Below are positions 2,852-22,844 of a DNA stretch of 64,000 nucleotides, in pieces. This stretch comes from Gammaproteobacteria bacterium. Lineage in GTDB: Bacteria; Pseudomonadota; Gammaproteobacteria; Burkholderiales; Rhodocyclaceae. Each line of letters starts with the position of its first letter. Positions within the stretch are counted from its first letter, which is position 1. The stretch covers positions 1-64,000 of the forward strand of contig JARFTZ010000029.1 in the NCBI GenBank assembly GCA_029289235.1. The letters are read 5' to 3'. The notes under the pieces were generated by a model. The model was not told the DNA's origin. It saw only the letters and a list, made by a program, of their open reading frames with translations, and ran no database searches. The position numbers and the translations under genes were made by a program.

Positions 2852-2877
2852 GGGTCTGGGAATGGGTGGAATGGATG

Positions 2878-5800
2878 TTATGCAGACTCGGGCTGGGCGG
2901 CCCAAAGCGCGTCATTGAAGGCGGCCAGCACCGGCTGGAGCTGGCCGTTGAAAATCTTGTCGAGGCGACTGAAACCGCCGCCTTCGCGTTTGAAGATGAG
3001 GTCGGGGTCATCCAGCGCCGCGCAGTCTACCAGTACGTTGGCCTTGGTCTGCGCGGCGATGCGCTTGAGCCAATCGCGCTGCGGTGTAGTCCAGGGCGTA
3101 CCGCCGGGGGGATGGGCCAGCAGCTGTTGCAAGGCATGGTCGACCCGCTCGCCGTAGGGCAACAACGGATCGCCGATGGCGGCCTGACGGATGTAGCCGA
3201 CGATGCGAGCGGCGATGTCCTGGTTGGTGAGTTCGCGCCAGGCGGTGGCGAGGCTGGTTTCGGTGAAACCGGCGGCATCCAGCGCCAGCACCAGCTCGCG
3301 CAACTGGGCGCGGGTGAGGTCGCGCGGGCGGGTGAGTACGGTCAGCAGTGCGGGGATATCGTTACTGTGGCTCTTGAGGTAGTCGCCGAATTCGCGCAGG
3401 TAGTCTTCCGGCTTATGCGCCTTGCCGTAACCACGCTCGACACGCTCGAAGCGATCCGGGTGGTCGGAAACGTACATGGTGCGGGGCGTGCCGTTGGATT
3501 GGCGGTCGAGCAGTTCGCCGAGACCGGGGTGCTGAATGAACCAGTTGGCCACGTCAGCAAGCGGCAGGGTTTTCAGCTTCTGGATGAATTCCTGCGGCGC
3601 CATGCCTGCTTTGGTTTCAAAGTTCTGCATATCCTGCGTCGAAAGGTGACGTTTCTTGCGTTGCAGCTTGGCCAGGAACTGGTCGCGTGCCAGTGCCGTT
3701 GCCGCCTCGTCCTTGAGGGTGGCGAGTTCCTCGGCCAACTGGGTGAATCCGATCTTGGCATTGACCACCGGCTGCATGGCGGTCATGTTGCCCACGGCTT
3801 CGAAGATGCGCACGGCATCGAAGACGCGGAAGGACTCCTTGTCCTCGGCACCGCCAAAGTCGCACAGACGGGTGGCGCGCCCGAGCATCTGGTCGAACAG
3901 GATGCGGCTGTTCACCTGGCGCAGGAAAACCAGGTTGCAGATTTCGGGCACATCGACGCCGGTGGTCAGCAGATCGACGGTGACGGCGACATTGGGCAAA
4001 CGCTCGTTCTTGTAGCGGCGGATCAATTGCAGGGGCTTGTCGGCGGCGCCGGTGATCTTGATGACGGCGTCGTCCTCGACGCTGCCGTACTGCTTTTTGA
4101 AGGCTTGTTTGAGCAGATCGACGACCAGGTCGGCATGGCTGTCGCTGACGCAGAAGATCAGCGTCTTGCGGCGTAAGGCCGGGTCCAGTTCCTGGGCCAG
4201 ATAGTCACAGATGACCTCATTGAAGGCGCGGGTGATGACCTTGCGGTTGAAGTCCTCGACCTTGAGTTTGATTTCATCGGGCGCCTTGAAGAGCTCGATC
4301 TGCTGGCGACCGGTGTCATAGACCTTGACCGGTTCGCCGACCCGCCAGGTCATGCCGTGGGAGGAGAGCTCGGTATGGATTTGCACCGGTGGCTCGTAAT
4401 CGACCAGGTAGCCGTCGATCACCGCTTCACGGTAACTGTAGGTGAAGGCCGGCGCACCGAAAATCTGCGTGGTGTGCAGTGCGGGGGTGGCAGTGAGGCC
4501 GACCTTGACCGCGTCGAAGTAATCGAGAATGCGCCGGTATTTGGAGATGTAGTCGTCGTAGCCGCGGAAACTCAGCTCGGTTTCCGACAACTCGCGATCC
4601 AGCAGGTAGCCGCGATGGCATTCATCGACGACGATGCAGTCGTATTGGTCGATGGGCGGCGGCGCGTTTTCGTCTGCGTACAGAACGCGTTGCACCATCC
4701 CTTGCACGGTGGCGATATGCACGGCGGTATCGCCGTCCGGCTGTGGATGCTCCAGCTCCTTGATACCGAAGATGTCGGCGAAGGTTTGCAGCTTCTCCAT
4801 ACGCGTGTCCTTGAACGCGTTGGCGGCCTGTTCGCCCAGGGCGGAACGATCCACAAGAAACAGGATGCGGCGGAACCGCTGGGCCTTGAGCAGACGATAG
4901 ATCAGCGCGATGCAAGTCTTGGTCTTGCCGGTACCGGTGGCCATGGCCAGCAGAATGGCGCGCTGGTTATCGGCAATGGCAGCCTCGGCCGCGCGGATAG
5001 CCTGTTCCTGATACGGGCGCAAGGGAAAGCCGTAGTCAAAGCTGGTTCGGTCGAGTTCGGCATGGGCCTGGGCAAGGTCTTGTTGAAGCAGTGCCTTTAG
5101 GCCGTCGGGCGTATACCAGCCGTCCAGGGCGTGGCTCAGATTTTCCGGCTGGCGCAGGTCGCAGAACCAGACGCCGCTTTGTTGCGCCAACTGGCGCAGG
5201 TAGGGACGGCCGTTGGACGAAAAGGCAAACGGCACGCGAAAGGCGCCATCAGCACCGTAGTTGGTAAGAGGCAGTTCAGTTTCCGGGGACGGCTTGAATC
5301 CGCGGCTGTAGCGCTTGGCTTGTTGCAGTGCAGCGGAAACGTCCAGGTGTTTGCGTTTGGCTTCGACGACCGCGACCGGCTGCAGGCCGATGAACAGCAC
5401 GTAGTCTGCCGGGCCGGTTTCAGTGGGCCACTCGGCAATGGCCAGATTCTGGCTACGCTGCGGCCGGGCGCCTTTAGCAAAGGTCAGGTGAATTGAATCG
5501 ACGGTCCAGCCGGCGGCGGCGAGTTGCTCGTCAATGATTTTGCGGGTGTCCGATTCGCTTAGCTTGAGGGTGGTCGCCGCGCTGTTGGCCGCTTCGACCA
5601 GTTGAGCCACCACTTGCGGCGACTGGTTGCTGGCTTGTACCTGAATGGCCTCCAGTCGCTGCGCCAGTTGGTGCTTGGCGCTCTCTGCTTCGGCTGCCAT
5701 GGCTTCCCAGATGGCGCGCTCTTCCTCCGTCTGTTGCACACGCGCCTGGGTCGCCGCCAGTGCCTGCGTTGCATCCTGATGCGCTGCGCGAAATGCCGTG

Positions 5801-6282
5801 AGTTCCTGCCGTAAAGCCTCAAGTTCGGCCTTGAGTTCAGCGCTTTCATCAGCGGGCGGCACCGGCGGAATGAAGGGGCCGGACTTGAACTCAGGTTCTT
5901 TGAACGTCCGGTGAAACCAGATCCCCAACTGCCAGGCCAGACGCATCGCCATCAGGGCCGTGCGATGGTCCCCGGCCAGCGTGTGGTTGGCGTCGTTGCC
6001 AGCCTTGCGGATTTCGTGAAACAGCCCGCCGACTTCGCGCGGCAAAATACCGTGATCCTGCAGACGGCGCAGTAGATCGATCTGCCTTTCATCCGCCGAG
6101 GTGTACAGGCCAACCCTGGAGGCCACCGACTGAGCCATCCCCTCGGCAAGCTGGCGAAGTTTCAGAAGACAGGTATTCGGGTCGTCGGCAAAGTAACGCT
6201 CGGCCAGCATGCCCAGTCGCTCAAGCTGCTCGTCGTGGGTTCTGAGCTGCGAGAAATTGCTTCTCAGGCGAACGATGGTCAT
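2878..6282 (-). CDS. hsdR: type I restriction endonuclease subunit HsdR
   Basis: 1134 residues; the ATP-dependent translocase and nuclease subunit. The N-terminus (about 1-130) resembles a DUF4145-type domain (FHEIRKAGNDANH). A coiled-coil-like stretch (about 140-215) follows. The nuclease domain carries VAVVEAKRK near 302 (ExK). The SF2 helicase motor has Walker A ATGTGKT near 447, the DECH box (VVDECHRG) near 550, LTATP, and motif VI GRATRLCD. An EcoEI_R-type C-terminal domain follows. It is the first gene of the hsdR-hsdM-yhcG operon. All motor motifs look intact, so there is no sign of decay in this gene. The ATG gives MTIVRLRSNFSQL. Confidence 0.93.
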   Translation of the reverse strand: MTIVRLRSNFSQLRTHDEQLERLGMLAERYFADDPNTCLLKLRQLAEGMAQSVASRVGLYTSADERQIDLLRRLQDHGILPREVGGLFHEIRKAGNDANHTLAGDHRTALMAMRLAWQLGIWFHRTFKEPEFKSGPFIPPVPPADESAELKAELEALRQELTAFRAAHQDATQALAATQARVQQTEEERAIWEAMAAEAESAKHQLAQRLEAIQVQASNQSPQVVAQLVEAANSAATTLKLSESDTRKIIDEQLAAAGWTVDSIHLTFAKGARPQRSQNLAIAEWPTETGPADYVLFIGLQPVAVVEAKRKHLDVSAALQQAKRYSRGFKPSPETELPLTNYGADGAFRVPFAFSSNGRPYLRQLAQQSGVWFCDLRQPENLSHALDGWYTPDGLKALLQQDLAQAHAELDRTSFDYGFPLRPYQEQAIRAAEAAIADNQRAILLAMATGTGKTKTCIALIYRLLKAQRFRRILFLVDRSALGEQAANAFKDTRMEKLQTFADIFGIKELEHPQPDGDTAVHIATVQGMVQRVLYADENAPPPIDQYDCIVVDECHRGYLLDRELSETELSFRGYDDYISKYRRILDYFDAVKVGLTATPALHTTQIFGAPAFTYSYREAVIDGYLVDYEPPVQIHTELSSHGMTWRVGEPVKVYDTGRQQIELFKAPDEIKLKVEDFNRKVITRAFNEVICDYLAQELDPALRRKTLIFCVSDSHADLVVDLLKQAFKKQYGSVEDDAVIKITGAADKPLQLIRRYKNERLPNVAVTVDLLTTGVDVPEICNLVFLRQVNSRILFDQMLGRATRLCDFGGAEDKESFRVFDAVRIFEAVGNMTAMQPVVNAKIGFTQLAEELATLKDEAATALARDQFLAKLQRKKRHLSTQDMQNFETKAGMAPQEFIQKLKTLPLADVANWFIQHPGLGELLDRQSNGTPRTMYVSDHPDRFERVERGYGKAHKPEDYLREFGDYLKSHSNDIPALLTVLTRPRDLTRAQLRELVLALDAAGFTETSLATAWRELTNQDIAARIVGYIRQAAIGDPLLPYGERVDHALQQLLAHPPGGTPWTTPQRDWLKRIAAQTKANVLVDCAALDDPDLIFKREGGGFSRLDKIFNGQLQPVLAAFNDALWAAQPESA

Positions 6283-7575: not shown

Positions 7576-8127
7576 TCAGGTTGATAACAGATCCTGCGGC
7601 AGCTTCGAGGCCATCATTTTCTTCCGGTCGATGATGCGCCCATCGACGATGAAGGTGCCGTCGCCAACGGCGTGAACGGTGCGTTTCTCCTTGCGTTCGG
7701 TGTCGAGCCAGGCGGCAACGCCCTCGAGCACGACAATGTTGTGCTTTGGTATGAAATCGATGACCTTGCACTCGATGTTGGCAAGGCACTCCTTGATCAG
7801 GGGCGATTTGACATGTTTGGCCGGTGCCCGCGTGAGATTGAAGCGGGTGAACTTGTCCGTATCCGCCCCCGAGCAGGTGCCGATGCCAACCACCTTGTCC
7901 AGCAGGTCGACGGTGGGTATCGCGATGACGCACTCCTGATTCTTGTGCAAGGCCGCGAACGAGTAGTTCCAGCTTCCCGTCGTGATGGCGAATTGCGGCA
8001 TGAAGTCGATCACCATGGTCCACGAGATGGTCATGATGTTGTCTTTATCAGCATCATGGGTCGTAACCAGAACAACCGGCCCGGACTCCATCAGGGTGAA
8101 GGCCCTGCTCAGTTTCAACGGGCGCAT
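7576..8127 (-). CDS. flavin reductase family protein (FMN-binding split barrel)
   Basis: 183 residues. Flavin reductase-like fold that binds FMN: VVLVTTHDADKDNIMTISWTMVIDFMPQFAITTG near the start, then a cap region with ECVIAIPTVDLLDKVVGIG and later CKVIDFIPKHNIVVLEG. Such proteins reduce flavins with NAD(P)H or serve in small redox steps; the substrate is not evident. The start at 8127 (MRPLKLSRAF) is preferred over the ATG seven codons upstream, because a GGAGG site lies 7 nt before it. It is 90 bp downstream of the large oxidoreductase operon on the same strand and may be co-transcribed with it. Confidence 0.8.
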   Translation of the reverse strand: MRPLKLSRAFTLMESGPVVLVTTHDADKDNIMTISWTMVIDFMPQFAITTGSWNYSFAALHKNQECVIAIPTVDLLDKVVGIGTCSGADTDKFTRFNLTRAPAKHVKSPLIKECLANIECKVIDFIPKHNIVVLEGVAAWLDTERKEKRTVHAVGDGTFIVDGRIIDRKKMMASKLPQDLLST

Positions 8128-8217
8128 GAGAACACCTCCGATCGCCATTCCCGTAGCGAAACGGGGTGGCGACTCGCATCACCACCCCGCGTTCTTCCCC
8201 CCTTCACCAGGCGGACA

Positions 8218-11064
8218 TCACCCAAGCCCGTGCTTGGCCTTGCTGGCCTGCTCCTGCGGCTTGAACAGGTTGAAGCGCGGCAGGAACTTGTCCCAGTCGA
8301 TGATGTGGCCGTCGATCTCGGGGCCGTCGACGCAGGCGTGCTTGCGCACCAGCTTGCCTTCGAGATTCACCGGCACCATGCACGCGCCGCACATGCCCGT
8401 CGCATCGACCATGATCGAGTTGAGGCTGGCGACGGTCTTGACGCCGTAGGGACGGGTGAGATCGCTGACGGCGCGCATCATCAGCGGCGGGCCGATGGTG
8501 ACGACTTCGGCGATCTCGCGCCCCTTGCTCTTCTTGCCGTTCTTGAGCATTTCTTCGAGCGGCGTGGAGACGAAGCCCTTGATGCCGAAGCTGCCGTCGT
8601 TGCTGCAGTAGATCACGTCGAGCAGGTCGCCGAACTCGGCCTGCAGCTTGCCGACGCGCTCGTTCTCCTTGGTCCAGAACAGGAGGTCGGCGCTGCGGAA
8701 GCCGGCGATCAGGGTGACGTGGTTGCCCTTGCGCAAGTGCTCGCGAGCAATCGGGTACACCGGCGGCAGGCCAACGCCGCCGGCGGTGAACACCACCGTC
8801 TGTTTCTTCGCATCGTAGCTGTGCAGTTCGCTCGGCTGGCCGAGCGGCCCGGCGATACCGGTGAAGGCCTCGCCAATCTGCATCCGGTTGATCTCGATGC
8901 TGCTGGTGCCCATGCCCTGCACCACGAGACAGATGGTGCCGGCCTTGGCGTCCCAGTCGGCCAGCGTCAGCGGGATCAGCTCGCCGTTCGGCCAGGCCAG
9001 CACGCGCACGAACTGCCCGGCGCGGGCGGCGCGGGCGATCATCGGCGCATGCACGATGAACTCGACGATGCCGGTGCTGAGTTCGATCTTGTCGACGATC
9101 GTCTGCGGCGCCGCGCTGAGTTCGGTGTAGTGCCGGGCGCTCTCGACCCGTTTCCGGATTTCTTCCGGCGCCATGTCGATCTCGCCGACGATCTCGCGCG
9201 CCGCCGCCTGCCCGTCGCCGGCGGCACGGACCGCCGTGGAACCGCCGCGGGCCGCATCGCCGCCTGAGTAGATCCCCTCCAGCGACGTCTTCTGCGAACC
9301 CCGGGCGCCGAGGTCGATGGTGCCCCACTTGGTCGTCTTCAGGCTCGGCTCGGAATCCTTGATGATCGGGTTCGGATCGTTGCCGAGCGCCATGATCACC
9401 AGATCGGCCTTCATCAGTTCCCTCTCGCCGGTAGCGACGGGGCTGCGGCGGCCGGAAGCATCCGGCTCGCCGAGCGCCATCACTTCGAGCATCGCGCCGG
9501 TGACGAAGTTGGTCTTGTCGTCGCCGACGAACTCGCACGGCGAGCGCAGCACCTTGAGCTGGATGCCCTCCTCCAACGCGTGGTGCAGTTCCTCGACCCG
9601 TGCCGGCATCTCGCTCTGCGTGCGGCGATAGACGATGGTGACGTTGCCGCCGAGGCGCCGCGCGGTGCGCGACGCGTCCATCGCGGTGTTGCCGCCGCCG
9701 ATGATGATAACCTCCTTGCCCTTCGTTTCCGGCAGCGGCGTTTCATAGTCCTCGCGCAGCCCCTGCATGAGATTCACGCGCGTCAGGAACTCGTTGGCCG
9801 ACATGACGTTGAGCAGGTGCTCGCCGGGCACGTTCATGAAGCGCGGCAGTCCGGCGCCGGTGCCGACGAAGATCTTCCAGAAGCCGGCTTCGCGCAGGTC
9901 GTGCAAGGTCGCCGTCTTGCCGACGACGAAGTTGGAGACGAACTTGCCGCCGAGCAGCTTGATCTTGCCGACCACATCGTCGATCAGCTCGTTGGGCAGG
10001 CGGAACTCGGGGATGCCGTAGCGCAGCACGCCGCCGAGCGCGTGGAAGGCTTCGAAGATGGTGACCGGAAAGCCTTCCACGGCCAGCAGGTAGGCGTTGA
10101 TCAGGCCGGCCGGGCCGGAACCGACCACGGCGATCGGCGGCTTCTCGGCCTTGGCCCAAGGGTCGGGGAAGCCGGCAAAGCGCGCCGCGATGCCGTCCGG
10201 ATTGACCACCTTCTCGCGTTGCGGCAGGAACCATTCGAGCTGGCCGATCTCGATCGGCTGCTTGGCGTGCGCGCAAACGCCCTGGCACTGCAGTTCCTGC
10301 GGACAGACGCGCCCCGTCACGTTCGGCAGCGGGTTGCAGTTCTCGATCAGCTCCATCGCCTCGCGGAAGCGCCCGTTTCCGAGCAGGTTCAGCACCTCCG
10401 GAATGTGGATCTTGACCGGGCAACCTCCCTTCGGCTCGAACTTGCCGGGCACGTGCACGCCGACTTCGCAGGGCTTTTCGTCGCACTGCTTGTCGCGCAG
10501 CACTTCGAGCCAGACGATCATGTCGACTTCCCGCGCCGTGTAGCCGAGGTTCATGTAGCCGAGATAGCCCTGGTTGACCAGGTCGAAGTCGCTGGACCGC
10601 TCCTCCGGCGAGCGGATGTACGGCGGAATGAAGCTTTCCGCCGGCCAGTTCGCCGACAGCCCCTTGAACATCAGGTAGCGGCCCGAGAGATGCTTGTCGA
10701 GCGCCTTGATGAACTTGCGTTTCAGGCCGAGCGGCACTTTCCAGACGAAGCGCATGAGGATCTTGCTCATGTCGTCGTCGCGCAGCAGCAGGTCCCAGAA
10801 GACATGGATGAACTCGGCGGAGAGTTCGTCCTGCTGGAACTCGGCAACGATCGCGCCGGCGCCTTCGGAGATGAACAGCTCGCGGAACGCCTGCGGGTCG
10901 TTGAGCAGGCGCCGCCGCAGGAGATCCAGTTGCTTGTTGAAGGTGCCGACGGCGGGCGTCTGCTCGAGGGCCTCGACCTGCGAGCGCGTGGCGTCCAGCG
11001 CGTTGCTGGCCTCCCGGTAGCGCTGCAGGTCGTCCTGACCGAATTGAGAGGCTCCGTTGCTCAT
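8218..11064 (-). CDS. fused NfnAB/SudAB-like flavin oxidoreductase (GltD-type plus FNR-type halves)
   Basis: 948 residues. After an N-terminal segment of about 200 residues that I do not recognise comes a Fer4_20-type domain (GCPVKIHIP near 210; NPLPNVTGRVCPQELQCQGVC near 245-266). Next is a GltD-like FAD/NADPH module with VVGSGPAGLINAYLL near 308 and IIIGGGNTAMDASRTARR near 451. The C-terminal third (about 660-940) is a ferredoxin-NADP reductase/SudB-like module ending in ATGMCGACMVPVN and HACVDGPEIDGH. The pattern D-A-T-G-M-C-x-x-C ... C fits the Asp/Cys3 [2Fe-2S] site known from sulfide dehydrogenase/Nfn small subunits. These two halves are normally separate subunits. The ATG overlaps the stop of the upstream 2-oxoacid oxidoreductase (ATGA), which implies a joint complex passing electrons from ferredoxin-type clusters to NAD(P). 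Partner specificity is inferred. Confidence 0.85.
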   Translation of the reverse strand: MSNGASQFGQDDLQRYREASNALDATRSQVEALEQTPAVGTFNKQLDLLRRRLLNDPQAFRELFISEGAGAIVAEFQQDELSAEFIHVFWDLLLRDDDMSKILMRFVWKVPLGLKRKFIKALDKHLSGRYLMFKGLSANWPAESFIPPYIRSPEERSSDFDLVNQGYLGYMNLGYTAREVDMIVWLEVLRDKQCDEKPCEVGVHVPGKFEPKGGCPVKIHIPEVLNLLGNGRFREAMELIENCNPLPNVTGRVCPQELQCQGVCAHAKQPIEIGQLEWFLPQREKVVNPDGIAARFAGFPDPWAKAEKPPIAVVGSGPAGLINAYLLAVEGFPVTIFEAFHALGGVLRYGIPEFRLPNELIDDVVGKIKLLGGKFVSNFVVGKTATLHDLREAGFWKIFVGTGAGLPRFMNVPGEHLLNVMSANEFLTRVNLMQGLREDYETPLPETKGKEVIIIGGGNTAMDASRTARRLGGNVTIVYRRTQSEMPARVEELHHALEEGIQLKVLRSPCEFVGDDKTNFVTGAMLEVMALGEPDASGRRSPVATGERELMKADLVIMALGNDPNPIIKDSEPSLKTTKWGTIDLGARGSQKTSLEGIYSGGDAARGGSTAVRAAGDGQAAAREIVGEIDMAPEEIRKRVESARHYTELSAAPQTIVDKIELSTGIVEFIVHAPMIARAARAGQFVRVLAWPNGELIPLTLADWDAKAGTICLVVQGMGTSSIEINRMQIGEAFTGIAGPLGQPSELHSYDAKKQTVVFTAGGVGLPPVYPIAREHLRKGNHVTLIAGFRSADLLFWTKENERVGKLQAEFGDLLDVIYCSNDGSFGIKGFVSTPLEEMLKNGKKSKGREIAEVVTIGPPLMMRAVSDLTRPYGVKTVASLNSIMVDATGMCGACMVPVNLEGKLVRKHACVDGPEIDGHIIDWDKFLPRFNLFKPQEQASKAKHGLG

Positions 11065-14000
11065 CGAATGATCTCCGCATCGCAGTTGGCCGATACCCGC
11101 TTGATGCGGGCCTTCAGCTCGGGGGTCACGGTCACTTTCTCCAACGCCCCCGGGATCAGGCGGGCGACCTCGCGGCTCTCGCCGTCGATGACCATCCGCG
11201 TTTTCTCGAACAGTTCCGGGATGTCCTGGTAGCAGGTCTTGCAGTTGGTGCACTTGGACGAATCCTCGATCGTCACCAGCGCCTCGGCGACTGCAGTCGC
11301 GGCACCGGCCGCGGCTGGTACCGCCGTGCCACCGCCGACCGGAACGATCGGAATGGTCTTCGCGCCGCCAACGGGCGCCTTGCTCGACGCGGCGAGTTCC
11401 GACATCGCCCGGGCGATCGCGTCGAGCGAGGTATCGTGCTGCTTGGCGGACTCCTTGACCTGCGCCTGCAGCGCGTCGATCGCCGCGCGGTGGCTGGCGT
11501 CCATCGTCGCGACGTGGAAGCCGGCGAGGTATTGCAGCATCCGCCAGTTCTTGCGCCGCTCTTCGATGAGCGCGACGATCGACGGGGACACACTCATCCG
11601 GACCAACTTCCGGTTCGCATCGACCGAATACACGAACGGCGTCTTGCCTTCCCGCGCTTCGACCGGCAAATCGATGAACTCGACGACCGGCACGAGGTTT
11701 TGCGCATCGGCCGGCAACTTCCTGAACTGCTTCTTGAAGCGGATTTCGCCGAGAGCGAAGCTGGCCGGCGTGAGATCGATTTCCATCAGCTGCACGGCGC
11801 CGGCGTCGTCCAGATATTCCAGCGAGGTCTTCGCCCAAGTCTTGTCCGGGTCCGGGTTGCCGTCGAGCGAGAACCACTCGTGCAGCGTCTTGCCCTTGCG
11901 CGGGTCATGCACGAACACCGGGTTCATCCGGCTCTCCACGGCCAGGCGCGCCTGCCGCGCCGAGACGTTGTCGGCGATGCCGTGTTCGCCCTGGCACGGG
12001 GTGTAGACGTCGAGCACCGCCGGGCCGTCGGCGTAGGAGATCAGTTCCATGGTGTTCTTCAGGAAGTGCCCCTGCAGCGCCGTGGTCGTCGAGCAGACGA
12101 AGACGTTGGGGTGGAACGAGGCGATCAGGCCGAGTTCCTTGCGCGACTCCTGCTTGCCGCTGTGCGCCCCACCGTGCCGTGCCAGATCCGAGTCCTGCCC
12201 GGTAAAGCTTGACGTGGACGCCTGCCCGCCGGTGTTGGAATACGCCCCGGTATTGAGCACCAGCATCTTCACCGGCGTGTTGCTGGCGAGGATGCGCGAG
12301 AAGGCGCCGAAGCCGATGTCGTAGGTTGCGCCGTCGCCGCCGATGGTCAGCACCGTCGGCATCAGCGCCAGTTCCTCCTTGGAGAACTGGTTCCACGAAA
12401 GGAAGCGCAATTCCTTGTCGTGCTGCTCGGGCACGTAGGCGTCGTCCAGTTCGAGGCGCGCGAGGCGCATGGCCTTGACGTCCGGCGCGTTCTGCGCGGC
12501 GACCCCCTCGAAGATGCCCTTGGCGAGCGGCTGCGCGTCCTGGAACAGGCTATTCACCCACGGGTCGTTGTAGGCGTTGAACGGGAAGGTCGAGGCATAA
12601 ACGCTGCTGCAGCCCGTCGAGTTGGCGATGATCGCCCCGGCCGGGCCGTTGCCGGTCGGGCCACCTTCGTAGAGGTACAGGCGTTTCTCCAGCGTGGCGA
12701 GCAACTCGCCGATGCGCTGGCTGCGTTCGGTCTCCTTCTTGCCGAGCGTCTTCTGCTTGGCGACGAGATCGGCAATCAGCTCTTCCAGTTCGGCGATGTG
12801 GTCTTGCCGCCGCTTTTCTGTGATCGCATGGTTGGTCGCGACGACCAGACGGATCGCGGTGACCTCGCCGCAGCCGCGACAGCCGCCGTGGCCGCCGGTG
12901 GTCGAGTAGTAGTTGTCGCGGTCGAGCAGCATGCGCTTTATCTCGCCGCCGGACTGGACGGCGCCATCGACGAAGCGCGCCGGGGTGTTCGGCGTTTTGC
13001 TCATGAAATCGAAGCGGTGCTGCAGGGTGCTCTGCAACGCCGCGTCCTGCTCCTGCGCCGACAGCGCGCCGGGGCCACAGACGTCGATGCACTCGAGACA
13101 GCCCGTGCACTTCCACGGATCGACCGTCACCGAATACAGCCCGCCGCTGCCAGGGCTGGCCTTCTCGGCGGCGTCGAAGAACGGCCGCGTGCGGGCCACC
13201 GGATAGGCCGCCAGCAGATCGACGAGCTTGCTGAAGTTGCCGAGCAGGGTCGCCTGGCGTGTCGGCAGGCTGGACGCCGCCTCGGCGACCAGCTCGTGGA
13301 ACGGCCGTGCATCCTTGGTCCGGCGATAGGCCTCGCGCACCGCCTCGGCCACGGCGTAGACCTGCCCGCGCATCGCATCGCGCTGCGCCTCGGTGATGTC
13401 GAGCTGGCGGATGCCGGTGAACAGCAGTTCGTGGATTTCATGCACCGTGTTCGGAATCGCCGCATCCGGGCAGACCAGCGTGCATTCCATGCAGCCGGTG
13501 CACAGGTCGGGGTTGAACAGCGGCGCGTTGCGGCGGAACAGCCCCTTGTCCTTCGAGCCGGCGGTGCCGGCCGGCATGAACAGCCCGGCGCCCGGCAGCA
13601 CCGGCGCCTCGGCGATGGTGCCTTCGCGGAACGGTGTGGCGATCATGTCGTTGAAGTACTCGCGGTCGAACAGGCCACAGGCGGCAGCGCCGTCGGGCTG
13701 GCACATCGATGCGGAGAGCGAGACGTTGCGCAGGGCGATCGGTGCCGGCTTGGCGTCGATCTTGGTGAAGGCCGCCTTGTCGTAGTCGACGCGGATCGTC
13801 GCCTCGATGCCCTCCTTGATCACTTCCATGTTGCCTTCAACGACCGCCGCGCCCTTGCTGCCGAACTTCTTGGCGATCTGCTTGCGCACCTTCTCCAGGA
13901 TGGCCTTCGGCGTCGCGCCGGCCGAGACCTGCTTGACGTGCCCGGCGACGGCGCCGATGAAGGCGATGCCCATCATCCGCGTGGCCAGTTCCGGCGTCGG

Positions 14001-16058
14001 CGCGTGTTTCTTGGCCACGGCAAAGGCGTCGATGATAAAGAAGTTGATCTTCTTCTCGCGGATCGTCTGCCGGGCCTTCGCCGGCAGATCCTCCCACACC
14101 TGTTCCGGCGCGGCGTTCGACTGCAGGATGAAGGTACCCCCCTCGGCCAGCCCTTTCAGCGGGTTGGTATGCACGAACGAGCGGTGGTCCGGCGAGATGA
14201 CGACTTCCACGTCCTCCAGTTCGGCGTTGGTAATCTTGATCGGTTCAGGCGAGAGCGTGATGTAGAAGTTCGTCGGCGCGCCGCTCTTCTCCGAACCGTA
14301 CTTCGGCGCCGACTTCGAATGCATGTCGAGCACGCCGGCAAGGATGTCGGTGAGCAGTTTGCCGGAGGCAATCGTGCCGTAGCCACCGACCGAGTGGAAG
14401 CGCACGCGGAAGGCGGAATCCGGCAACAGGCGCGGATTAGGCTCGGTGTCCAGCGCCATCAGTTCGGTTTCCGGATACGCGGCCTTCAACTTCTTCTGCA
14501 GCTCGGCCATGCGCGGGTTCGGGTTCTTCGAGAAGAACTGCGAGCCGAGGTAGATCAATGAAGCGGTCTTGCCGGTTTCCATCGCCTTGAACGCGGCGAC
14601 GAGGTGGCGCGGTTGCAGGTCGTGGCCGCCGAGGCCGAAGATGGCCGTGGTGATCCGCGGCGTGGCCTTGATCGCCGGGATGCCGGCGTGGCGTTCGGCT
14701 TCGCCCTTCTTCAACTCGCCATTCTCACGGGCCTTGAACAACGCCTGGGTGACCAGCGGGGTCAGTGCCGCCTGATCGGAACGCTCCAGCACCGTAACGG
14801 CCTTCTTGCCGGCTAGCGCGGCGACCACTTCGGCTTCCGGGAACGGTTGCAGCAGCTTGATCGCCACGAGGCCGACCTTCTTGCCCTGGCTGCGCAGGTG
14901 GGTAACGACGGCTTCGACGTCGTCGCAGACCGAGCCGAGCCCGACCATCACGGTCTCGGCGTCATCGCACATGTAGGTGTGCACCGGCGAGTAGGTGCGG
15001 CCGGTCAGCGCCGAGTATTCGGCCATCGCCTGGCGCACCAGCGCCGGCACGGCGCTGGCGAAGTGCGTGCGGTGGTCTACGGCGCCAGCCTGGAAGTCCG
15101 GCTGGTTCTGGACCGGCCCGGTCAGGCCCGGGTTGTTGACGTCAACAAGCGCCGGCACGAGCTGGCGGGTGCCCTTCTCGAAAGCGTTGAGCCACTGGCG
15201 CCGCCACTGGCCGTGCAACTCTTCCGGTAGCCAGCCAAGGGTTTTCTCGACAAGCTTGCCGTCGTTGTCCTTCTCGACCTTGGCGGCGTTGCCGTCGAGG
15301 AACTTCTTCAGCGCGGCAAGGTTGGCTTCGGTGATGTCCGCCGCGTGGCGGGTAAGGTACTGGTTCAACTGGAACACGCGACCTTTGGAACCAAACAGAA
15401 TTTCTTGCGCCAAAGTCGGACAGGGGATTCGGCCCGCTGGATCGCCGAGGTAATCGCGAAGCAGTTCCGGTTCCGGCAGCAGCGCCTCGCTCATCATGTG
15501 GCTGGTGGCGAAACCGTCCATCGCATTGGCAACGGGGATCAGCGACAGCGCCGAGGTGCGGTAGGAGATCGCCGCCAGGTCCGCGGCTTCCTGCGGATTC
15601 GAACCGAAGAGAATGGTGTAGCCGGATTGCAGCAGGGCATAGACGTCGTCGTGCCCGGCCATCACGTTCAGCGAGTGCTTGGAAACGACGCGCGCCGCCA
15701 CCTGCAGCACGAAGCCGCCGACCTTCTTGCCGACCGTCACGAAGTGCGACTCCATGGCGTACAGGATGCCCTGGCTCGACGAGGCATTGGAGATGAACTG
15801 TCCTCCGGTCAAGGCCGCGCCCAGCGCCCCGCTCTGTGCCGAATGTTCCCCTTCGGGCTCGAAGAAGAAGGGGTGCTTGCCCCACACATTCACGCCGCCT
15901 TCCGCCCGGAACGCCTCGTAAAGTTCGGCGATCTCGGTCGACGGGGTAATCGGATAGCCGATCACGCCACCGCACACGTTGCTCATCACGTGCGCGACGG
16001 CGCCGTTGCCATGGATGACGCTGGGAATGCCGGGATACTTCGCTTTCTTGACTTTCAT
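11061..16058 (-). CDS. 2-oxoacid:ferredoxin (pyruvate-type) oxidoreductase, extended single-chain form
   Basis: 1665 residues, against about 1170-1200 for ordinary single-chain NifJ/PFOR. The PFOR domain order is kept: alpha domain with YPITPSTEIAE near 37; transketolase-like domain II; gamma domain with HSVGGYGTIASGKL near 560; two [4Fe-4S] motifs CTGCMECTLVCPD near 850 and CTGCLECIDVCGPG near 982; the TPP domain with GGHGGCRGCGE near 1050 and TIGGDGATYDIGFG near 1237. Extra parts are a spacer between the two cluster motifs, an Ala-rich linker, and a C-terminal ferredoxin-like domain with CTNCKTC near 1600 followed by YQDIPELFE. It would decarboxylate pyruvate or another 2-oxoacid to an acyl-CoA; the substrate cannot be read safely. 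The downstream Nfn-like gene overlaps by 4 bp. Cytoplasmic; oxygen-sensitive in most relatives. Confidence 0.88.
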   Translation of the reverse strand: MKVKKAKYPGIPSVIHGNGAVAHVMSNVCGGVIGYPITPSTEIAELYEAFRAEGGVNVWGKHPFFFEPEGEHSAQSGALGAALTGGQFISNASSSQGILYAMESHFVTVGKKVGGFVLQVAARVVSKHSLNVMAGHDDVYALLQSGYTILFGSNPQEAADLAAISYRTSALSLIPVANAMDGFATSHMMSEALLPEPELLRDYLGDPAGRIPCPTLAQEILFGSKGRVFQLNQYLTRHAADITEANLAALKKFLDGNAAKVEKDNDGKLVEKTLGWLPEELHGQWRRQWLNAFEKGTRQLVPALVDVNNPGLTGPVQNQPDFQAGAVDHRTHFASAVPALVRQAMAEYSALTGRTYSPVHTYMCDDAETVMVGLGSVCDDVEAVVTHLRSQGKKVGLVAIKLLQPFPEAEVVAALAGKKAVTVLERSDQAALTPLVTQALFKARENGELKKGEAERHAGIPAIKATPRITTAIFGLGGHDLQPRHLVAAFKAMETGKTASLIYLGSQFFSKNPNPRMAELQKKLKAAYPETELMALDTEPNPRLLPDSAFRVRFHSVGGYGTIASGKLLTDILAGVLDMHSKSAPKYGSEKSGAPTNFYITLSPEPIKITNAELEDVEVVISPDHRSFVHTNPLKGLAEGGTFILQSNAAPEQVWEDLPAKARQTIREKKINFFIIDAFAVAKKHAPTPELATRMMGIAFIGAVAGHVKQVSAGATPKAILEKVRKQIAKKFGSKGAAVVEGNMEVIKEGIEATIRVDYDKAAFTKIDAKPAPIALRNVSLSASMCQPDGAAACGLFDREYFNDMIATPFREGTIAEAPVLPGAGLFMPAGTAGSKDKGLFRRNAPLFNPDLCTGCMECTLVCPDAAIPNTVHEIHELLFTGIRQLDITEAQRDAMRGQVYAVAEAVREAYRRTKDARPFHELVAEAASSLPTRQATLLGNFSKLVDLLAAYPVARTRPFFDAAEKASPGSGGLYSVTVDPWKCTGCLECIDVCGPGALSAQEQDAALQSTLQHRFDFMSKTPNTPARFVDGAVQSGGEIKRMLLDRDNYYSTTGGHGGCRGCGEVTAIRLVVATNHAITEKRRQDHIAELEELIADLVAKQKTLGKKETERSQRIGELLATLEKRLYLYEGGPTGNGPAGAIIANSTGCSSVYASTFPFNAYNDPWVNSLFQDAQPLAKGIFEGVAAQNAPDVKAMRLARLELDDAYVPEQHDKELRFLSWNQFSKEELALMPTVLTIGGDGATYDIGFGAFSRILASNTPVKMLVLNTGAYSNTGGQASTSSFTGQDSDLARHGGAHSGKQESRKELGLIASFHPNVFVCSTTTALQGHFLKNTMELISYADGPAVLDVYTPCQGEHGIADNVSARQARLAVESRMNPVFVHDPRKGKTLHEWFSLDGNPDPDKTWAKTSLEYLDDAGAVQLMEIDLTPASFALGEIRFKKQFRKLPADAQNLVPVVEFIDLPVEAREGKTPFVYSVDANRKLVRMSVSPSIVALIEERRKNWRMLQYLAGFHVATMDASHRAAIDALQAQVKESAKQHDTSLDAIARAMSELAASSKAPVGGAKTIPIVPVGGGTAVPAAAGAATAVAEALVTIEDSSKCTNCKTCYQDIPELFEKTRMVIDGESREVARLIPGALEKVTVTPELKARIKRVSANCDAEIIR

Positions 16059-16414: not shown

Positions 16415-16443
16415 ACAAAACCGCGCAAGTGGCGCGGTTTTGT
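16415..16443 (-). terminator. Rho-independent terminator of the pil operon
   Basis: ACAAAACCGCGC and GCGCGGTTTTGT are perfect 12-bp arms around a 5-nt loop. On the minus strand the stem runs into TTTTGTTTTA. It lies 112 bp after the pilY1 stop and separates the pil operon from the oxidoreductase genes. The arms contain A and T runs on both sides, so it could also work on the plus strand. Confidence 0.85.
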
Positions 16444-16554: not shown

Positions 16555-19500
16555 TTATTTGGAGTCGATCTTTTGATATCTATACACTTGCTTCCTCGTC
16601 GGCTTGATGCTGATCGGCACCTTGCCCGCTTCCAGCGCCGACCCGCCCTTTCCGCCCAGGATGAACGGCACAAGACGCCCGTCATCGAGCCTGACAATCC
16701 CCGCAACGGGGGAGGGTGCGAATCCGCCTCCGGCAAATTCTGACCATCGAGAGGTATCGCCCGCGCGCAGCCCCCCCGTAAGGAAATCCACAGCATAGCC
16801 TCGCGCAGTTCCAAGGTTGGAACATTGGTTGGCCGCCGTGGTCGGATCCGTCGGCTGGAAGGTGCTGAAATAGGTTACGCCCCCCGTCGTCACCGGAGTC
16901 GTGATGACCTGCTCCTTGGTCGTACTACCCTCCGAGTAAAGCTTCATGACCCAGCCTTTCGCGCCCACCGGCATCGTCGAATAATCCTGGCTAGTGTCGG
17001 TCACGTCCACCAAGGAACATCCTGAAGTCAGCAAGTTGTCTCCAGCGGCATCACAATCGTTGCCGTTGATTGCCGTGGGCGTTGAACCGTAGTCATCGTA
17101 GATGCCGTAGAAACGGTTTCGCACCGTTGCCGCAGTGCTGGTCCCAAGCGGATGCTCCCTATCGCCGGTTCCCAGGAGGACCAGATTCACCGAACCCAGC
17201 GTTATAACGTCTGCGGCATACATGATCTTGCGAGCCGTGGCGGCGTCGCTCCAGTCTGCCAGGTAGGCAAGGCGATGGAGCGCCCAGCCAGCGGGTGCCA
17301 ACCCCGCAAAACTGGCACCGGAACTGACGTTGATACGCCACAAGCTTCCTCGCGTATCACCCGCATACACATAGTCCGTATAACCATCGAGATTGACATC
17401 GACCGGCGTGACATCGGAGATCACACGCCCAGCGACGACGGAACTGTCGTAACTCGTCAGGTCGATGTATTTGACCAGCGCACCGGTATCGGCGTTAAGC
17501 ACGAAAACCCCCTGTCCTTTCGTGCTCGTACCGCAACGCCCGGTGCCGGTCACCTGATTGTCAACATCCTCGCACGCGTCATAACCAGCACCGAAAACAA
17601 GGTAGATTGTCGAGTCCCCCTTCAGTCTCATGATTCGCGGCGTTGACCATGTCTGGCCAATGTTGGCGACTCCCGACCCCCCGATGCAACCCGAGTCGCT
17701 CGATGTCGGACAACCGAATTTCCACTTCAGCGCCGGCGTGCTTGCCTCCGTCCCAGCGGGCCGTGTTGTCGCATCGAATGCATAAATCATGCGGCCGCCA
17801 CGACGCATCGACGGATAAAGCCAGAGTCTCGATACGGCGCCGGCAGCATTGCGCTCCTGATAAGCACCAATGGAACCATCAAAGAAATAGTCGCGCTGCG
17901 TGGGCGTTGGGTCATCAGTCACCGTTGGGTACGCCACTTTCGGACTGTTTTCCTTCAGGCGGGCGAATTTCGGGAAAAACTCCGGAGCGACGAACGCCCA
18001 AAGTTCTCTCCCCGGCACCGTCCCCACCGGGGACGTAGTGCGGTTTCCGTCAACGGCATGCAGCATGCCGTCTCCTGCCCCGTAGTAAACAACAATGTCG
18101 TCCGTGGTTCCGGTGCCGTAGTTGATGGCGAGAGGACGCGAATGCACGACGTCGCCATGCGCCGTCGGACGCGTGTAGGACTGCGACGCCGACAAACCAT
18201 CCGTCGGCGGGCTTTGCGTCGCCCCGTTATAAAACTCGTAGAGGTTCCCGGTCACACTGGGAGGACCGTCACCCAAATTGCCGCCGGCGACCCAGTTCAC
18301 GAGATTGGCCGGGATCGAGTTGATATTGCCTGACGTGAAGTCCACAAGCGAGGCACAGTCCGTCGTCGCACAACTCTTGATGAGTCGTCCACAGTAGGTC
18401 GGTGATTGACCGGTGCCACAAATCTGTTTGCGCAGCCACAATCCAGCGCCGCCCTTTTCAACGAGGTTACCGTCCGGCCAGTCAGAAAACGATGAGAAAG
18501 TGGTGTTGACACCATCACTCGGCGGCGTCGTACATCCGTTCTCAGGGGTCTGGCTGGTCGGTACCCTAGTCCAATAGGCCGTTCCATTGACCGGCCAGTT
18601 GCTCGTGTCGGCATCCCAGAAGCTGACGGCGCACTGCCGGATAAACCCTGTCGTTGCCGTATCGATCGCCGGATTGTCTTTCGCGTCGGCCATATAAACG
18701 TTGTTGGCCGAATCGATGGCGAACTTGTACTGCTTGAGGTTGCCGTTCCAGCGCTGATATGCCTGCGCATTGGGCCGGAACATGCCGACGAAGACCTGGT
18801 TCAGATAGGTTCCCTGGGTATTCACGCTCACGGGCAACGACGCCGAGGCAAAGACGCTGTTCGTTGCGGCGATCGACAGGAAAATATCCTTGATGCCGTC
18901 GATCAGCTTCTTGAGATTGCCGTCAACTTCGTAATAACCAGCGGCGCCCGTCCCCCCTTCCTTGGCCATCGATTGGAGCAGTTTTTTCTGACTCAGCCAG
19001 TCGCTGTTCTGAACCGTTCCCGGTGCGTAGATGTTTACGGCAAAGGTGAAGACCGGCTGCTGGTCAATGACGCTGCTGACGTCGGTCGTCGCCAGAAACT
19101 TTGTCCAGACGTCACCAAGCCGGTGCGAGTTGACGTTGGAACCGGCGCAGCAGATGGGCGAAGCCGAAGTATTGTTCAGTCCGGTGAGCAGGCTCGGGCT
19201 GTCTGCATTCGGCCAGTTGTTTCCGAAAAAGATGATGTAATTCTTCCCGCAAGCGTTGTCACCGGAAATGGGACTTTGATAAAGGCCGGCGATTTTGTCG
19301 CCATTAACAAATGCGTCTTCATCGGCATACAACGTGTGGTCGGTATAGCGCTGGGGGCCAAACGCCGCCCGGCTAATCGGTGTCCCCTGGCCATCATTGG
19401 GCGTGGTCGGCGAGTCGTTGATGGCTCGCTTCGGGTCCGTATATCCCCCGAAGTACTTGAATGCCTCGAAAAGGGCCTCGCCGTACGAAGCGCTTGAGGC

Positions 19501-20037
19501 AGCCTTGAAGGCCGGTGCGTTGATGTTGGCAATAATTGCATCAAGGTCTTCAATGATGCTCTGACAATTTGCCGCATTGAGCGGCAAAATAGCCCGGCGG
19601 ATATACCCGGACAAAATCTGGTTGTTTCCGTTGGCACCTTTATCTGGCGAGAGGAATTCAAGTCCGACGTTGACGTCAAGCGGTGTGCTCGAATTGCAGA
19701 CAAGTTCATTGAGCACCAGTTTGATGGCCGCCGCCTCAACCTGTCCTTGCTTTAGCGTTGCGCTCGGGTCCGAGCCGAAAATCTGGTTGACGTACCCTTG
19801 GCACGCGGCATCGCCACCACAAGCTTCCCATGCGCCGATCGTTCCGCCCTGGGTATTGCGCCTCCAGCCGGCCTGCGCCCAGTTGGACGTATTGTCCAGA
19901 AGCATCAGGACCTTGGGAGCATTCTGGTTCGAACTGCCCGACACGTAGAGATCGATGTCTTCGGCACAAGCCGGAAAAACAAATCCGGCCAGCATCACAA
20001 CAGCGATGCGCATTTTTTTCTTGCAAACAGGCGTCAT
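16555..20037 (-). CDS. pilY1: type IV pilus tip/adhesin protein PilY1
   Basis: 1160 residues, the usual PilY1 size. The signal peptide MRIAVVMLAGFVFPACA is followed by a von Willebrand A-like region whose metal site is weak (KVLMLLDNTSNW near 42-53, not the full DxSxS). The C-terminal half is the PilY1 beta-propeller, with the calcium loop DVNLDGYTDYVYAGD near 878-892, as in the conserved DxNxDGxxDxxxxxD motif. PilY1 sits at the pilus tip, binds calcium, and controls pilus extension, adhesion and surface sensing. The ATG at 20037 is preferred over an upstream in-frame ATG, because GGAGAG precedes it by 5 nt. It is the last gene of the minor pilin operon, 34 bp after pilX. Confidence 0.93.
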   Translation of the reverse strand: MTPVCKKKMRIAVVMLAGFVFPACAEDIDLYVSGSSNQNAPKVLMLLDNTSNWAQAGWRRNTQGGTIGAWEACGGDAACQGYVNQIFGSDPSATLKQGQVEAAAIKLVLNELVCNSSTPLDVNVGLEFLSPDKGANGNNQILSGYIRRAILPLNAANCQSIIEDLDAIIANINAPAFKAASSASYGEALFEAFKYFGGYTDPKRAINDSPTTPNDGQGTPISRAAFGPQRYTDHTLYADEDAFVNGDKIAGLYQSPISGDNACGKNYIIFFGNNWPNADSPSLLTGLNNTSASPICCAGSNVNSHRLGDVWTKFLATTDVSSVIDQQPVFTFAVNIYAPGTVQNSDWLSQKKLLQSMAKEGGTGAAGYYEVDGNLKKLIDGIKDIFLSIAATNSVFASASLPVSVNTQGTYLNQVFVGMFRPNAQAYQRWNGNLKQYKFAIDSANNVYMADAKDNPAIDTATTGFIRQCAVSFWDADTSNWPVNGTAYWTRVPTSQTPENGCTTPPSDGVNTTFSSFSDWPDGNLVEKGGAGLWLRKQICGTGQSPTYCGRLIKSCATTDCASLVDFTSGNINSIPANLVNWVAGGNLGDGPPSVTGNLYEFYNGATQSPPTDGLSASQSYTRPTAHGDVVHSRPLAINYGTGTTDDIVVYYGAGDGMLHAVDGNRTTSPVGTVPGRELWAFVAPEFFPKFARLKENSPKVAYPTVTDDPTPTQRDYFFDGSIGAYQERNAAGAVSRLWLYPSMRRGGRMIYAFDATTRPAGTEASTPALKWKFGCPTSSDSGCIGGSGVANIGQTWSTPRIMRLKGDSTIYLVFGAGYDACEDVDNQVTGTGRCGTSTKGQGVFVLNADTGALVKYIDLTSYDSSVVAGRVISDVTPVDVNLDGYTDYVYAGDTRGSLWRINVSSGASFAGLAPAGWALHRLAYLADWSDAATARKIMYAADVITLGSVNLVLLGTGDREHPLGTSTAATVRNRFYGIYDDYGSTPTAINGNDCDAAGDNLLTSGCSLVDVTDTSQDYSTMPVGAKGWVMKLYSEGSTTKEQVITTPVTTGGVTYFSTFQPTDPTTAANQCSNLGTARGYAVDFLTGGLRAGDTSRWSEFAGGGFAPSPVAGIVRLDDGRLVPFILGGKGGSALEAGKVPISIKPTRKQVYRYQKIDSK

Positions 20038-20071
20038 GACGACTCTCCAGTATTGGCGGGCGAAACAAAAG

Positions 20072-20653
20072 CTAGTTGCATGACGACTGGGCATCCGGGA
20101 CCGTCAGTCGTTGTTCAAGCCCTTCTGCCATATTCAGCATGACGCCGGTGTTCACATCCGACGCAGCCGGAACAACACTCGCCTGCAACTCCCAAAGAGT
20201 GGCGGCGCACAACGACTCCCCTTCGGTGACTGCCGAGTTCGTACTCACTATCGTCAGGGGGGAAGAACTCGAACCGGTAAAACACGCGACATCATTCGGC
20301 GCAACGACGGGGATACCGCCGGAGACGACAACCAGTTCGGATTTCGGAATTACTCGATAGCGCTTGCAGTCGGGCTTGCTGATCGTAACGTTGTAGTTCG
20401 CCATGCCAACGTTGACCGTCGTGGTGGTCGGTCCCGTCGCCGACGCGAACGTCGACGTATTCGCCGCCGCATCGAACGCATAGACGGCGGCCGCTTCCGC
20501 TTCCTTGCGGATCTGTTCGTTCCCGACAATCTTGAGATTGGTGTTTGAAAGCCGAAAGGCCGAGATTGCGAGCAGCGTCATCAAGATCAGCATGATCAGG
20601 CCCACGATCAGCGTCGCTCCGGCTTGACGTCGGCACGGGGTTGGCTCGGTCAT
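20072..20653 (-). CDS. pilX: type IV pilus minor pilin PilX
   Basis: 193 residues. N-terminal PilX_N domain: a short basic leader, then GATLIVGLIMLILMTLLAISAFRLSNTNLKI, a membrane helix typical of PilX with a non-standard prepilin start (glycine followed by ATLIV and no Glu5). The rest is a small globular domain with several cysteines, closing with QSSCN. It is a minor pilin that helps prime pilus assembly together with PilV, PilW and PilY1. The ATG follows GGAGATTCAA and overlaps the pilW stop by 4 bp (ATGA), so translation is coupled. Confidence 0.88.
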   Translation of the reverse strand: MTEPTPCRRQAGATLIVGLIMLILMTLLAISAFRLSNTNLKIVGNEQIRKEAEAAAVYAFDAAANTSTFASATGPTTTTVNVGMANYNVTISKPDCKRYRVIPKSELVVVSGGIPVVAPNDVACFTGSSSSPLTIVSTNSAVTEGESLCAATLWELQASVVPAASDVNTGVMLNMAEGLEQRLTVPDAQSSCN

Positions 20654-21723: not shown

Positions 21724-21726
21724 CTC

Positions 21727-22363
21727 TCACGCATCCAGTTTCGGAACCAATACACGCACCACTGCGGCACGCTTGAGTCCTGTGCCATAGTCATTATCCG
21801 AGGCACAACCGGCAGCATAGCTCCCGGTGGCCGGATCTGCGGTCGGCACCAACCCCTGCCACACGACTACCACGTAGTATTCACCCAAAGCATCAAGCTG
21901 CGACGGCGAAACACTGACGATACATCCTCTCGCGCCAAGCATGGCGCCGATCTTGGAGCCCGCAATTTGTTCTGCGGCGCCGGAGATGGCCAGCGCCCAC
22001 TGGCAGACCTGCAATTCCGCACCGGTCTCTGTCTCGCAGTCCGACACGCCGGTATATCCTGTGTCTCCATCCGGCCCCACCGTGGTCGTCATCGCCGCCC
22101 CCCCCGGAAGCGACGGGGGCCAGAGGGCCGGACAGTACGCCGCGCGACGACCGCAATCGGTTCTCCATGTCCTGAACCAACGACAAGGCTTGAGCGCGCT
22201 GATAGGACTCCATCTCCATGACACTCACTTTGGCTTGCAGTCCGCTGAGACCGAGCAATCCAATGGCAAGAATCACCAGCGTCACCAGGACCTCGATAAG
22301 CGAAAAGCCCGCTTCCCGGAGAAGTCTGGGCCGACAGACGAATCCATTGACTCCGATCAACAT
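21727..22363 (-). pseudogene. pilV: type IV pilus minor pilin PilV, frameshifted at a G8 run
   Basis: The gene starts at 22363 (MLIGVNGFVCRP, after GGAGACGGCTC) and shows a normal prepilin start: EAGFSLIEVLVTLVILAIGLLG, then LQAKVSVMEMESYQRAQALSLVQDMENRLRS. The frame then reaches a run of eight C at 22098-22105 (G8 on the coding strand) and runs out of frame to a stop near 21893. The other frame continues the PilV sequence with GGAAMTTTVGPDGDTGYTGV and WALAISGAAEQIAG to LVPKLDA at 21727. Removing one G joins both halves into a 211-residue PilV. This is either a homopolymer sequencing error, a real mutation, or a phase-variable tract. Neighbours are intact. Confidence 0.85.
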
Positions 22364-22839: not shown

Positions 22840-22844
22840 CGTAC

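Follow-up and report, generated by a model that had tools for sequence, protein, structure and literature searches.

A fused form of the flavoprotein Nfn was named Pattern C in 2019 and reported as an uncharacterised protein of Proteobacteria and Actinobacteria (Liang et al., PMC6405883), and the legend to Fig. 2 of the same paper lists PFOR among the nfn neighbours in several microbes. In a 2018 survey (PMC6085437), homologues from Actinobacteria and Proteobacteria, e.g., from Mobiluncus and Shewanella, occupy a basal position in the Nfn tree. The pyruvate:NADP+ oxidoreductase (PNO) of Euglena and Cryptosporidium (PMC6732389) delivers PFOR electrons to NAD(P) and needs no soluble ferredoxin for this; it is one chain that carries a FAD-FMN-NAD domain. 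Here, we analyzed a pair of overlapping genes in contig JARFTZ010000029.1 of a Rhodocyclaceae bacterium (assembly GCA_029289235.1, positions 1 to 64,000; this whole stretch of 64,000 nucleotides is referred to as the window). The first gene encodes a long single-chain 2-oxoacid oxidoreductase of the PFOR type (chain 1), and the second encodes a fused Nfn-like flavoprotein of the Pattern C type (chain 2). We propose that, as in PNO, electrons pass from chain 1 to NAD(P) without soluble ferredoxin; however, the pair has its flavoprotein on a second chain, of the Nfn type, to which chain 1 would be linked by a tethered ferredoxin. We estimate a probability of roughly 0.7 that the two chains form an oxidoreductase that transfers electrons from a 2-oxoacid, most likely pyruvate, to NAD(P)+ by means of a swinging ferredoxin arm. 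The open-licence literature yielded no description of the pair, in a search that covered neither subscription journals nor, specifically, PFOR genes within rnf operons.

All features of the pair lie on the minus strand. The gene of chain 1 occupies 11061..16058 (ATG start, 1665 aa) and that of chain 2 occupies 8218..11064 (948 aa); the ATG of the latter, at 11064, falls within the stop of the former, forming an ATGA overlap of 4 bp at 11061..11064, as the earlier note on this DNA had stated. It should be noted that the mechanical list of open reading frames (ORFs) places the start of chain 2 271 codons before this ATG.

The Pfam domains of chain 1 are POR_N (residues 32–201), PFOR_II (367–429), POR (558–752) and TPP_enzyme_C (1235–1292), with Fer4-type matches at 847–873 and 973–997 and Fer4_15 at 1599–1665. 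Both the domain order and the fold are those of PFOR, the latter in a Foldseek search with an AlphaFold model of residues 466–1665 (mean predicted local distance difference test score, pLDDT, 73), for which the best match was Moorella PFOR 6cin (template modelling score, TM, 0.47, E 2.8e-32). Ligand conservation was counted over 67 chain-1 and 66 chain-2 sequences. The twelve cysteines for three [4Fe-4S] clusters are invariant (67/67): C853, C856, C859 and C863 in a first CxxCxxCxxxC motif (13470..13502), C984, C987, C990 and C994 in a second (13077..13109), and C1060, C1063, C1150 and C1355. The same is true for the thiamine pyrophosphate (TPP) motif GDG...YSNTGGQ, aligned at residues 1241–1281 (12216..12338), and for T38, E71, R123 and N1275, which we take to be the catalytic Thr, Glu, Arg and Asn of Desulfovibrio PFOR, in agreement with the alignments. 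Thus, chain 1 shares the domain order, the TPP site and the three clusters with canonical PFOR (NifJ; 6cin, 1b0p); however, the canonical enzymes are 434–494 aa shorter, with 1171 (Moorella) and 1231 (Desulfovibrio) residues in the PDB list, and the inserts, linker and C-terminal ferredoxin are short or missing in the two sequences compared. The excess of about 470 residues given in the earlier note is therefore a fair figure, and it is mostly due to inserts near residues 206–305, 870–970, 1064–1140 and 1480–1560, while the linker and terminal ferredoxin account for only ~105 residues.

The C-terminus carries the feature on which our interpretation turns, a single-cluster ferredoxin domain (residues 1599–1665; 11064..11264) held by a variable linker rich in Ala, Pro, Gly and Ser (residues 1561–1598; 11265..11378). 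This added ferredoxin-like domain, also described in the earlier note, is supported by a Fer4_15 match (E 9.9e-7, 29.8 bits versus a cut-off of 22.4), no single stretch of which passes E 0.01 alone, by a weak resemblance to ferredoxin 7m1o (E 3.5e-5), and by the presence of C1603, C1606, C1609 and C1659 in 66/67 sequences, the exception being a truncated one (L022). Since the cluster cysteines are invariant in both chains, apart from this sequence, the features of the chains are not due to chance. Over 66 sequences, the linker varies from 32 to 53 aa and has a mean identity to chain 1 of the window of 32%, compared to 68% for the whole chain; its content of A, G, P, S, T, N and Q has a median of 68% versus 44%. 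The AlphaFold pLDDT falls to 29–40 across residues ~1556–1605.

Chain 2 contains Fer4_20 (residues 213–283), Pyr_redox_2 (311–618), NAD_binding_1 (761–867) and DHODB_Fe-S_bind (882–922), and it matches NCBIfam NF009415 with 1789.5 bits (cut-off 1519) over residues 10–947 of 948. Its two halves match the subunits of Pyrococcus NfnI, namely the large subunit (5jca_L, E 2.4e-105) and the small subunit (5jca_S, E 3.3e-66), so that the joining of GltD-like and FNR/SudB-like halves in one polypeptide, another point of the earlier note, is upheld by both Pfam and PDB comparisons. The GltD/NfnB-like half with predicted FAD and NADP(H) sites spans residues 308–626 (9187..10143), and the NfnA/SudB-like, FNR-type half with predicted FAD and NAD(H) sites spans residues 655–945 (8230..9102). 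The Fe-S region of the GltD-like half (residues 191–277; 10234..10494) contains two ligand sets, D191, C194, C199, C264 and C215, C254, C260, E277, all present in 66/66 sequences, as is the [2Fe-2S] Asp(Cys)3 set D887, C892, C895, C911. The first position of the former set, presumably a ligand of the distal, ferredoxin-facing cluster as in the GltD and DPD structures, is unusual: Asp191 replaces the first of the four cysteines of a distal [4Fe-4S] cluster in every sequence. Chain 2 reads RDKQC at this site, versus RCLFC and RCIQC in the Nfn-type proteins of loci L006 and L100. In addition, C199 and C215 are separated by 15 residues, compared to 3 in the same two proteins, i.e., by a 12-residue insert. 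The latter set would be the Glu(Cys)3 ligands of the proximal [4Fe-4S] cluster; this assignment of residues to clusters follows the GltD and DPD structures and PMC8097209, according to which Nfn has clusters with Asp(Cys)3 as well as with Glu(Cys)3 ligands. An all-helical N-terminal extension (residues 1–180; 10525..11064) had no PDB sequence match better than E 0.14, and a helical model of residues 1–210 (mean pLDDT 72) resembled no fold in the PDB (best E 1.7). No flavodoxin-like domain was found in either chain by the Pfam scan.

Chain 2 belongs to NF009415 and fits Pattern C Nfn. As in Pattern C (PMC6405883), it is fused, its FAD/NAD/[2Fe-2S] half is C-terminal, and it is ~200 aa longer; unlike the Pattern C proteins, which that paper does not connect with PFOR in its text, it goes together with a PFOR that bears a tethered ferredoxin, and its distal cluster has Asp191. 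Another fused protein related to Nfn is AadN of Rhodopseudomonas palustris (PMC9973337), to which genetics assigns a part in supplying electrons; however, it is called Pattern B by its authors and is tied to benzoyl-CoA reductase and not to PFOR. A clade of GltD-type proteins named "Large homologs in Proteobacteria" (PMC10134865) may include chain 2.

When genome contigs were scanned for chain 1, 102 relatives emerged, and the best 80 were retained as loci. Holders among these 80 are Propionivibrio, Accumulibacter, Paludibacterium, Rhodoplanes, Rhodopila, Blastochloris, Vibrio, Photobacterium and Psychromonas, and further Thiosymbion, Cohaesibacter and two metagenome-assembled genomes (MAGs) of Propionibacterium, among others. 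The co-occurrence of the two genes, suggested in the earlier note as a check, was seen in most loci: in 76/80, chain 2 shares the strand of chain 1 and lies directly downstream of it, and in the remaining four (L014, L037, L044, L082) the contig breaks off inside chain 1 or within 400 bp behind it. The nearest possible start of chain 2 is at most 190 bp from the stop of chain 1 in 75/80 loci and 840 bp away in one frameshifted locus. Measured to the nearest possible start codon, the genes overlap in 49/76 loci (39 by 4 bp, 9 by 11 and 1 by 14), and no natural fusion of the two chains was seen in the 76. In a sample of 398 genomes of the phylum, chain 2 was above the NF009415 cut-off in 9; chain 1 matched 11 at E 1e-120, namely the same 9 at no less than 59% identity and two of a sister type at 34 and 37%, and the two genes are adjacent in all 9. 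It should be noted that 8 of these 9 genomes belong to one genus, and the number of independent cases is therefore far lower. Matches were found in 1/246 genomes of an Actinobacteria-phylum sample (the seed genome itself) and in 2/369 of the class sample (the window's genome plus a contig beginning inside the gene); plasmids had no chain 2 match at E 1e-100, and viral contigs had no relative of chain 1. Chains 1 and 2 are a conserved module.

The best evidence for the role of the tether comes from the sister type. In a Rhodocyclaceae MAG (L076), a second long PFOR (1639 aa, 36% identity), located behind the genome's own chain 1/chain 2 pair, sits between RnfB- and RnfC-like genes. This Rnf-paired type was found in 14/300 genomes of the window's order, the window's genome not being among them. 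In the 15 distinct loci (these 14 and L076), an rnfB match is upstream in 14 and an rnfC match is downstream in 15, all within ~300 bp; the contig of L138 starts inside the PFOR gene, giving no upstream view, and holds only the start of the rnfC match. The arrangement is mostly rnfB-PFOR-rnfC (PFOR at L076 7435–12354, L124 7494–12425 and L123 8237–13165; also L139 and L140). The next genes are rnfD, rnfE and rnfA in L124 and rnfE and rnfA in L123, all of which exceed the subfamily cut-offs of NCBIfam; the RnfB-like proteins fall short of most equivalog cut-offs. Plasmids of Gemmatirosa and Persicobacter also carry an Rnf-type PFOR with rnfC and rnfD downstream, rnfB being upstream in the former and ~6 kb downstream in the latter, so that the type is seen in Pseudomonadota, Gemmatimonadota and Bacteroidota.

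We compared inserts and lengths in 16 Nfn-type, 11 Rnf-type and 2 canonical NifJ sequences. In a FastTree tree of these 29 sequences, the three types are separate with local support of 1.0. Relative to the two canonical sequences, the Nfn- and Rnf-types have in common a long insert within the two-cluster ferredoxin domain (chain 1 residues 870–970; 13149..13451), a long helical insert, an extended C-terminus, and the linker with the terminal single-cluster ferredoxin. The helical insert, seen in the model helices and the length map, is a hairpin (residues 1064–1131; 12666..12869) between the ligands C1063 and C1150 of the TPP-side cluster. The insert at residues 206–305 (15144..15443) is particular to the Nfn-paired type, where it measures 100 aa; the corresponding stretch has 28 aa in Rnf-paired sequences and 12 aa in the two canonical PFORs. 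The last ferredoxin cysteine of the Rnf-paired type is misaligned with C1659, and a fourth cysteine is visible in each C-terminus. As a separate observation, residue 29, directly before the YPITPST motif, is Cys in 67/67 Nfn-paired chains and Ser in 15/15 readable Rnf-paired rows (one genome counted twice). Overall, tethered PFORs of one kind are found with two unrelated ferredoxin:NAD(P) enzymes, which argues that the tether serves the partner.

In the proposed mechanism, chain 1 would bind pyruvate, TPP and coenzyme A (CoA) and form acetyl-CoA and CO2, while single electrons would travel through the three PFOR clusters to the fourth, in the C-terminal ferredoxin domain. This domain would then swing on its flexible linker and dock at the distal cluster of the GltD-like half of chain 2, from which electrons would reach the central FAD of chain 2 and form NADPH there, with exchange with NAD(H) through the FNR-like half and the [2Fe-2S] cluster. 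If the chemistry of Nfn is kept, the reaction would be pyruvate + CoA + NADH + 2 NADP+ → acetyl-CoA + CO2 + NAD+ + 2 NADPH, or its reverse. Bifurcation or confurcation by chain 2 is possible; the sites are kept, but sequence alone is insufficient to decide this. In cells, the potential of the pyruvate couple is near -500 mV, and those of NADPH and NADH are near -370 and -280 mV, respectively. With these values, the confurcating reaction would be near reversibility, so that both oxidation and synthesis of pyruvate would be possible.

Several observations weigh against this proposal. Chain 1 scores 417.5 bits against the TIGR02176 equivalog, below the cut-off of 911, which makes it a divergent relative whose substrate is not certified by the family. 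The terminal ferredoxin domain is modelled at a pLDDT of just 45–68, and its identity as a ferredoxin therefore rests on Pfam, the similarity to 7m1o and the conserved cysteines; its docking on chain 2 is putative. The distances of chain 1 and chain 2 are highly correlated (r 0.927 for 58 pairs, the best of 1000 permutations being 0.175), but this is expected for any co-inherited neighbours and is no evidence of contact. Two genomes of the four loci with interrupted contigs carry chain 2 on a different contig, while the other two (L014 and L082, with contigs ending in or at chain 1) have none at E 1e-100. The gene order is compatible with a free ferredoxin or flavodoxin as well; a cluster of NfnA-like, gltA and nifJ genes on an Enterococcus plasmid adjoins a flavodoxin gene. 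The window's genome also has PDH E1 (AceE) and pyruvate formate-lyase, and the need for the pair is thus not obvious. Finally, the function of Nfn homologues cannot be read from sequence alone (PMC6405883).

Two alternatives are narrower forms of the proposed oxidoreductase, and the odds therefore overlap. According to the first, which is a plausible option although short of an even chance, the pair would be a non-bifurcating pyruvate:NAD(P)+ oxidoreductase, in which chain 2 uses low-potential electrons simply to reduce a single nucleotide (or both), like the GltD-type enzymes of Azoarcus. The 2-oxoglutarate:NADP+ and phenylglyoxylate:NAD+ oxidoreductases of Azoarcus evansii are reportedly multi-subunit enzymes with a GltD-like NAD(P) flavoprotein; to our knowledge, they have neither a tethered ferredoxin nor an FNR-like half. 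Similar-looking gene sets are present in the window's genome, where 4/5 POR_N loci, including that of the window, adjoin a GltD-type gene. L102 contains GltD- and KorA-like genes with a 4-bp overlap, L103 contains PorG-, PorA-, PorB- and GltD-like genes, and no FNR-like half was found at either. In L101 (G000:C46:303000-313000), separate NfnA- and NfnB-like genes directly precede KorA- and KorB-like genes of a two-subunit oxidoreductase, which is an unfused form of the Nfn/2-oxoacid oxidoreductase pairing in the same genome; several gene assignments in these three loci are below equivalog cut-offs. On the contig of the fifth POR_N locus, the search reported no chain-2 relative. Asp191 may also shift the potential of the distal cluster. 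Conversely, the FNR-like half and the [2Fe-2S] ligands, kept in 66/66 sequences, would be superfluous for a one-nucleotide enzyme.

According to the second alternative, which we find doubtful, the pair would be a pyruvate synthase. Chain 2 would bifurcate electrons of NADPH, with NAD+ as the high-potential acceptor, and thereby drive the reductive carboxylation of acetyl-CoA on chain 1 in acetate assimilation, so that the confurcating reaction would run backwards. Among the holders, several are purple phototrophs or relatives of Accumulibacter, which live on acetate, whereas others are marine Vibrio, Photobacterium and Psychromonas, which are sugar fermenters, and oxidation fits these better; moreover, no neighbour gene in the 80 loci indicates a direction. 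A third alternative, two independent enzymes in a shared operon, with chain 1 reducing a common ferredoxin pool on which chain 2 draws as an ordinary Nfn, is unlikely, for while PFOR and NfnA/gltA genes co-occur without a tether on the Enterococcus plasmid with its adjoining flavodoxin gene, this explanation is at odds with the close pairing of the genes, the conserved tethered ferredoxin, the changed ligand position and 12-residue insert of chain 2 where it presumably faces ferredoxin, and the tethered counterpart that is paired with Rnf.

PFOR beside Nfn- or GltD-type genes is not unusual in itself. On the Enterococcus plasmid, flavodoxin, NfnA-like, gltA and nifJ genes are consecutive, and on a plasmid of Phenylobacterium the gene of an NAD(P)-binding protein precedes nifJ. 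The earlier note had seen the unusual point in an operon with these fusions, and here it has to be corrected, as the fusion is already described (Pattern C, PMC6405883; NF009415) and neighbouring genes of 2-oxoacid oxidoreductases and Nfn/GltD-type proteins are not rare. What is unusual is the tethering of the ferredoxin, together with Asp191 as a cluster position, and the new point is a tethered ferredoxin with two alternative partners.

Clustering of 845 ORFs around the 80 loci revealed no third conserved gene beside the pair; the clustering took the longest frame, which is wrong in some GC-rich DNA, and weak neighbour conservation could escape it. Gene neighbours were dropped as a clue to substrate or direction, since the largest shared family was present in 6/80 loci. 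A gene for a flavin-reductase-like protein (PF01613; window 7576–8148, minus strand) starts ~70 bp downstream of chain 2. Further downstream, type I restriction-modification genes for HsdM and HsdR occupy 189–6282 (minus), with a YhcG/DUF1016-type nuclease gene adjoining HsdM. On the other side, a terminator-like hairpin 5' of chain 1 (16415..16443, minus), recognised by a pattern match of which 8 sites were seen in the region versus 7.2 expected, separates chain 1 from type IV pilus genes at 16555–23258 (minus), which encode PilY1-like, PilW, prepilin-like and ComP-like minor pilin proteins.

Tentatively, and with less than even confidence, we suggest that the long swinging-arm PFORs are a plug-in module, which would couple either to a soluble bifurcating flavoprotein or to the membrane pump Rnf. 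The Nfn form would then be a ferredoxin-free, reversible, electron-bifurcating pyruvate oxidase/synthase, with an equilibrium set by NAD(H) and NADP(H); we know of no electron-bifurcating 2-oxoacid oxidoreductase of this kind. An uncharacterised class of fused Nfn enzymes gains a testable partner and function, and the two pairings display a PFOR with its own electron shuttle and two alternative partners, a natural system for the study of protein-tethered electron transfer. If the proposed function is true, facultative anaerobes, relatives of Accumulibacter and purple bacteria among them, would be able to oxidise or synthesise pyruvate without a ferredoxin pool, and NADPH or, for the sister form, an ion gradient would directly set the balance of this pyruvate chemistry.

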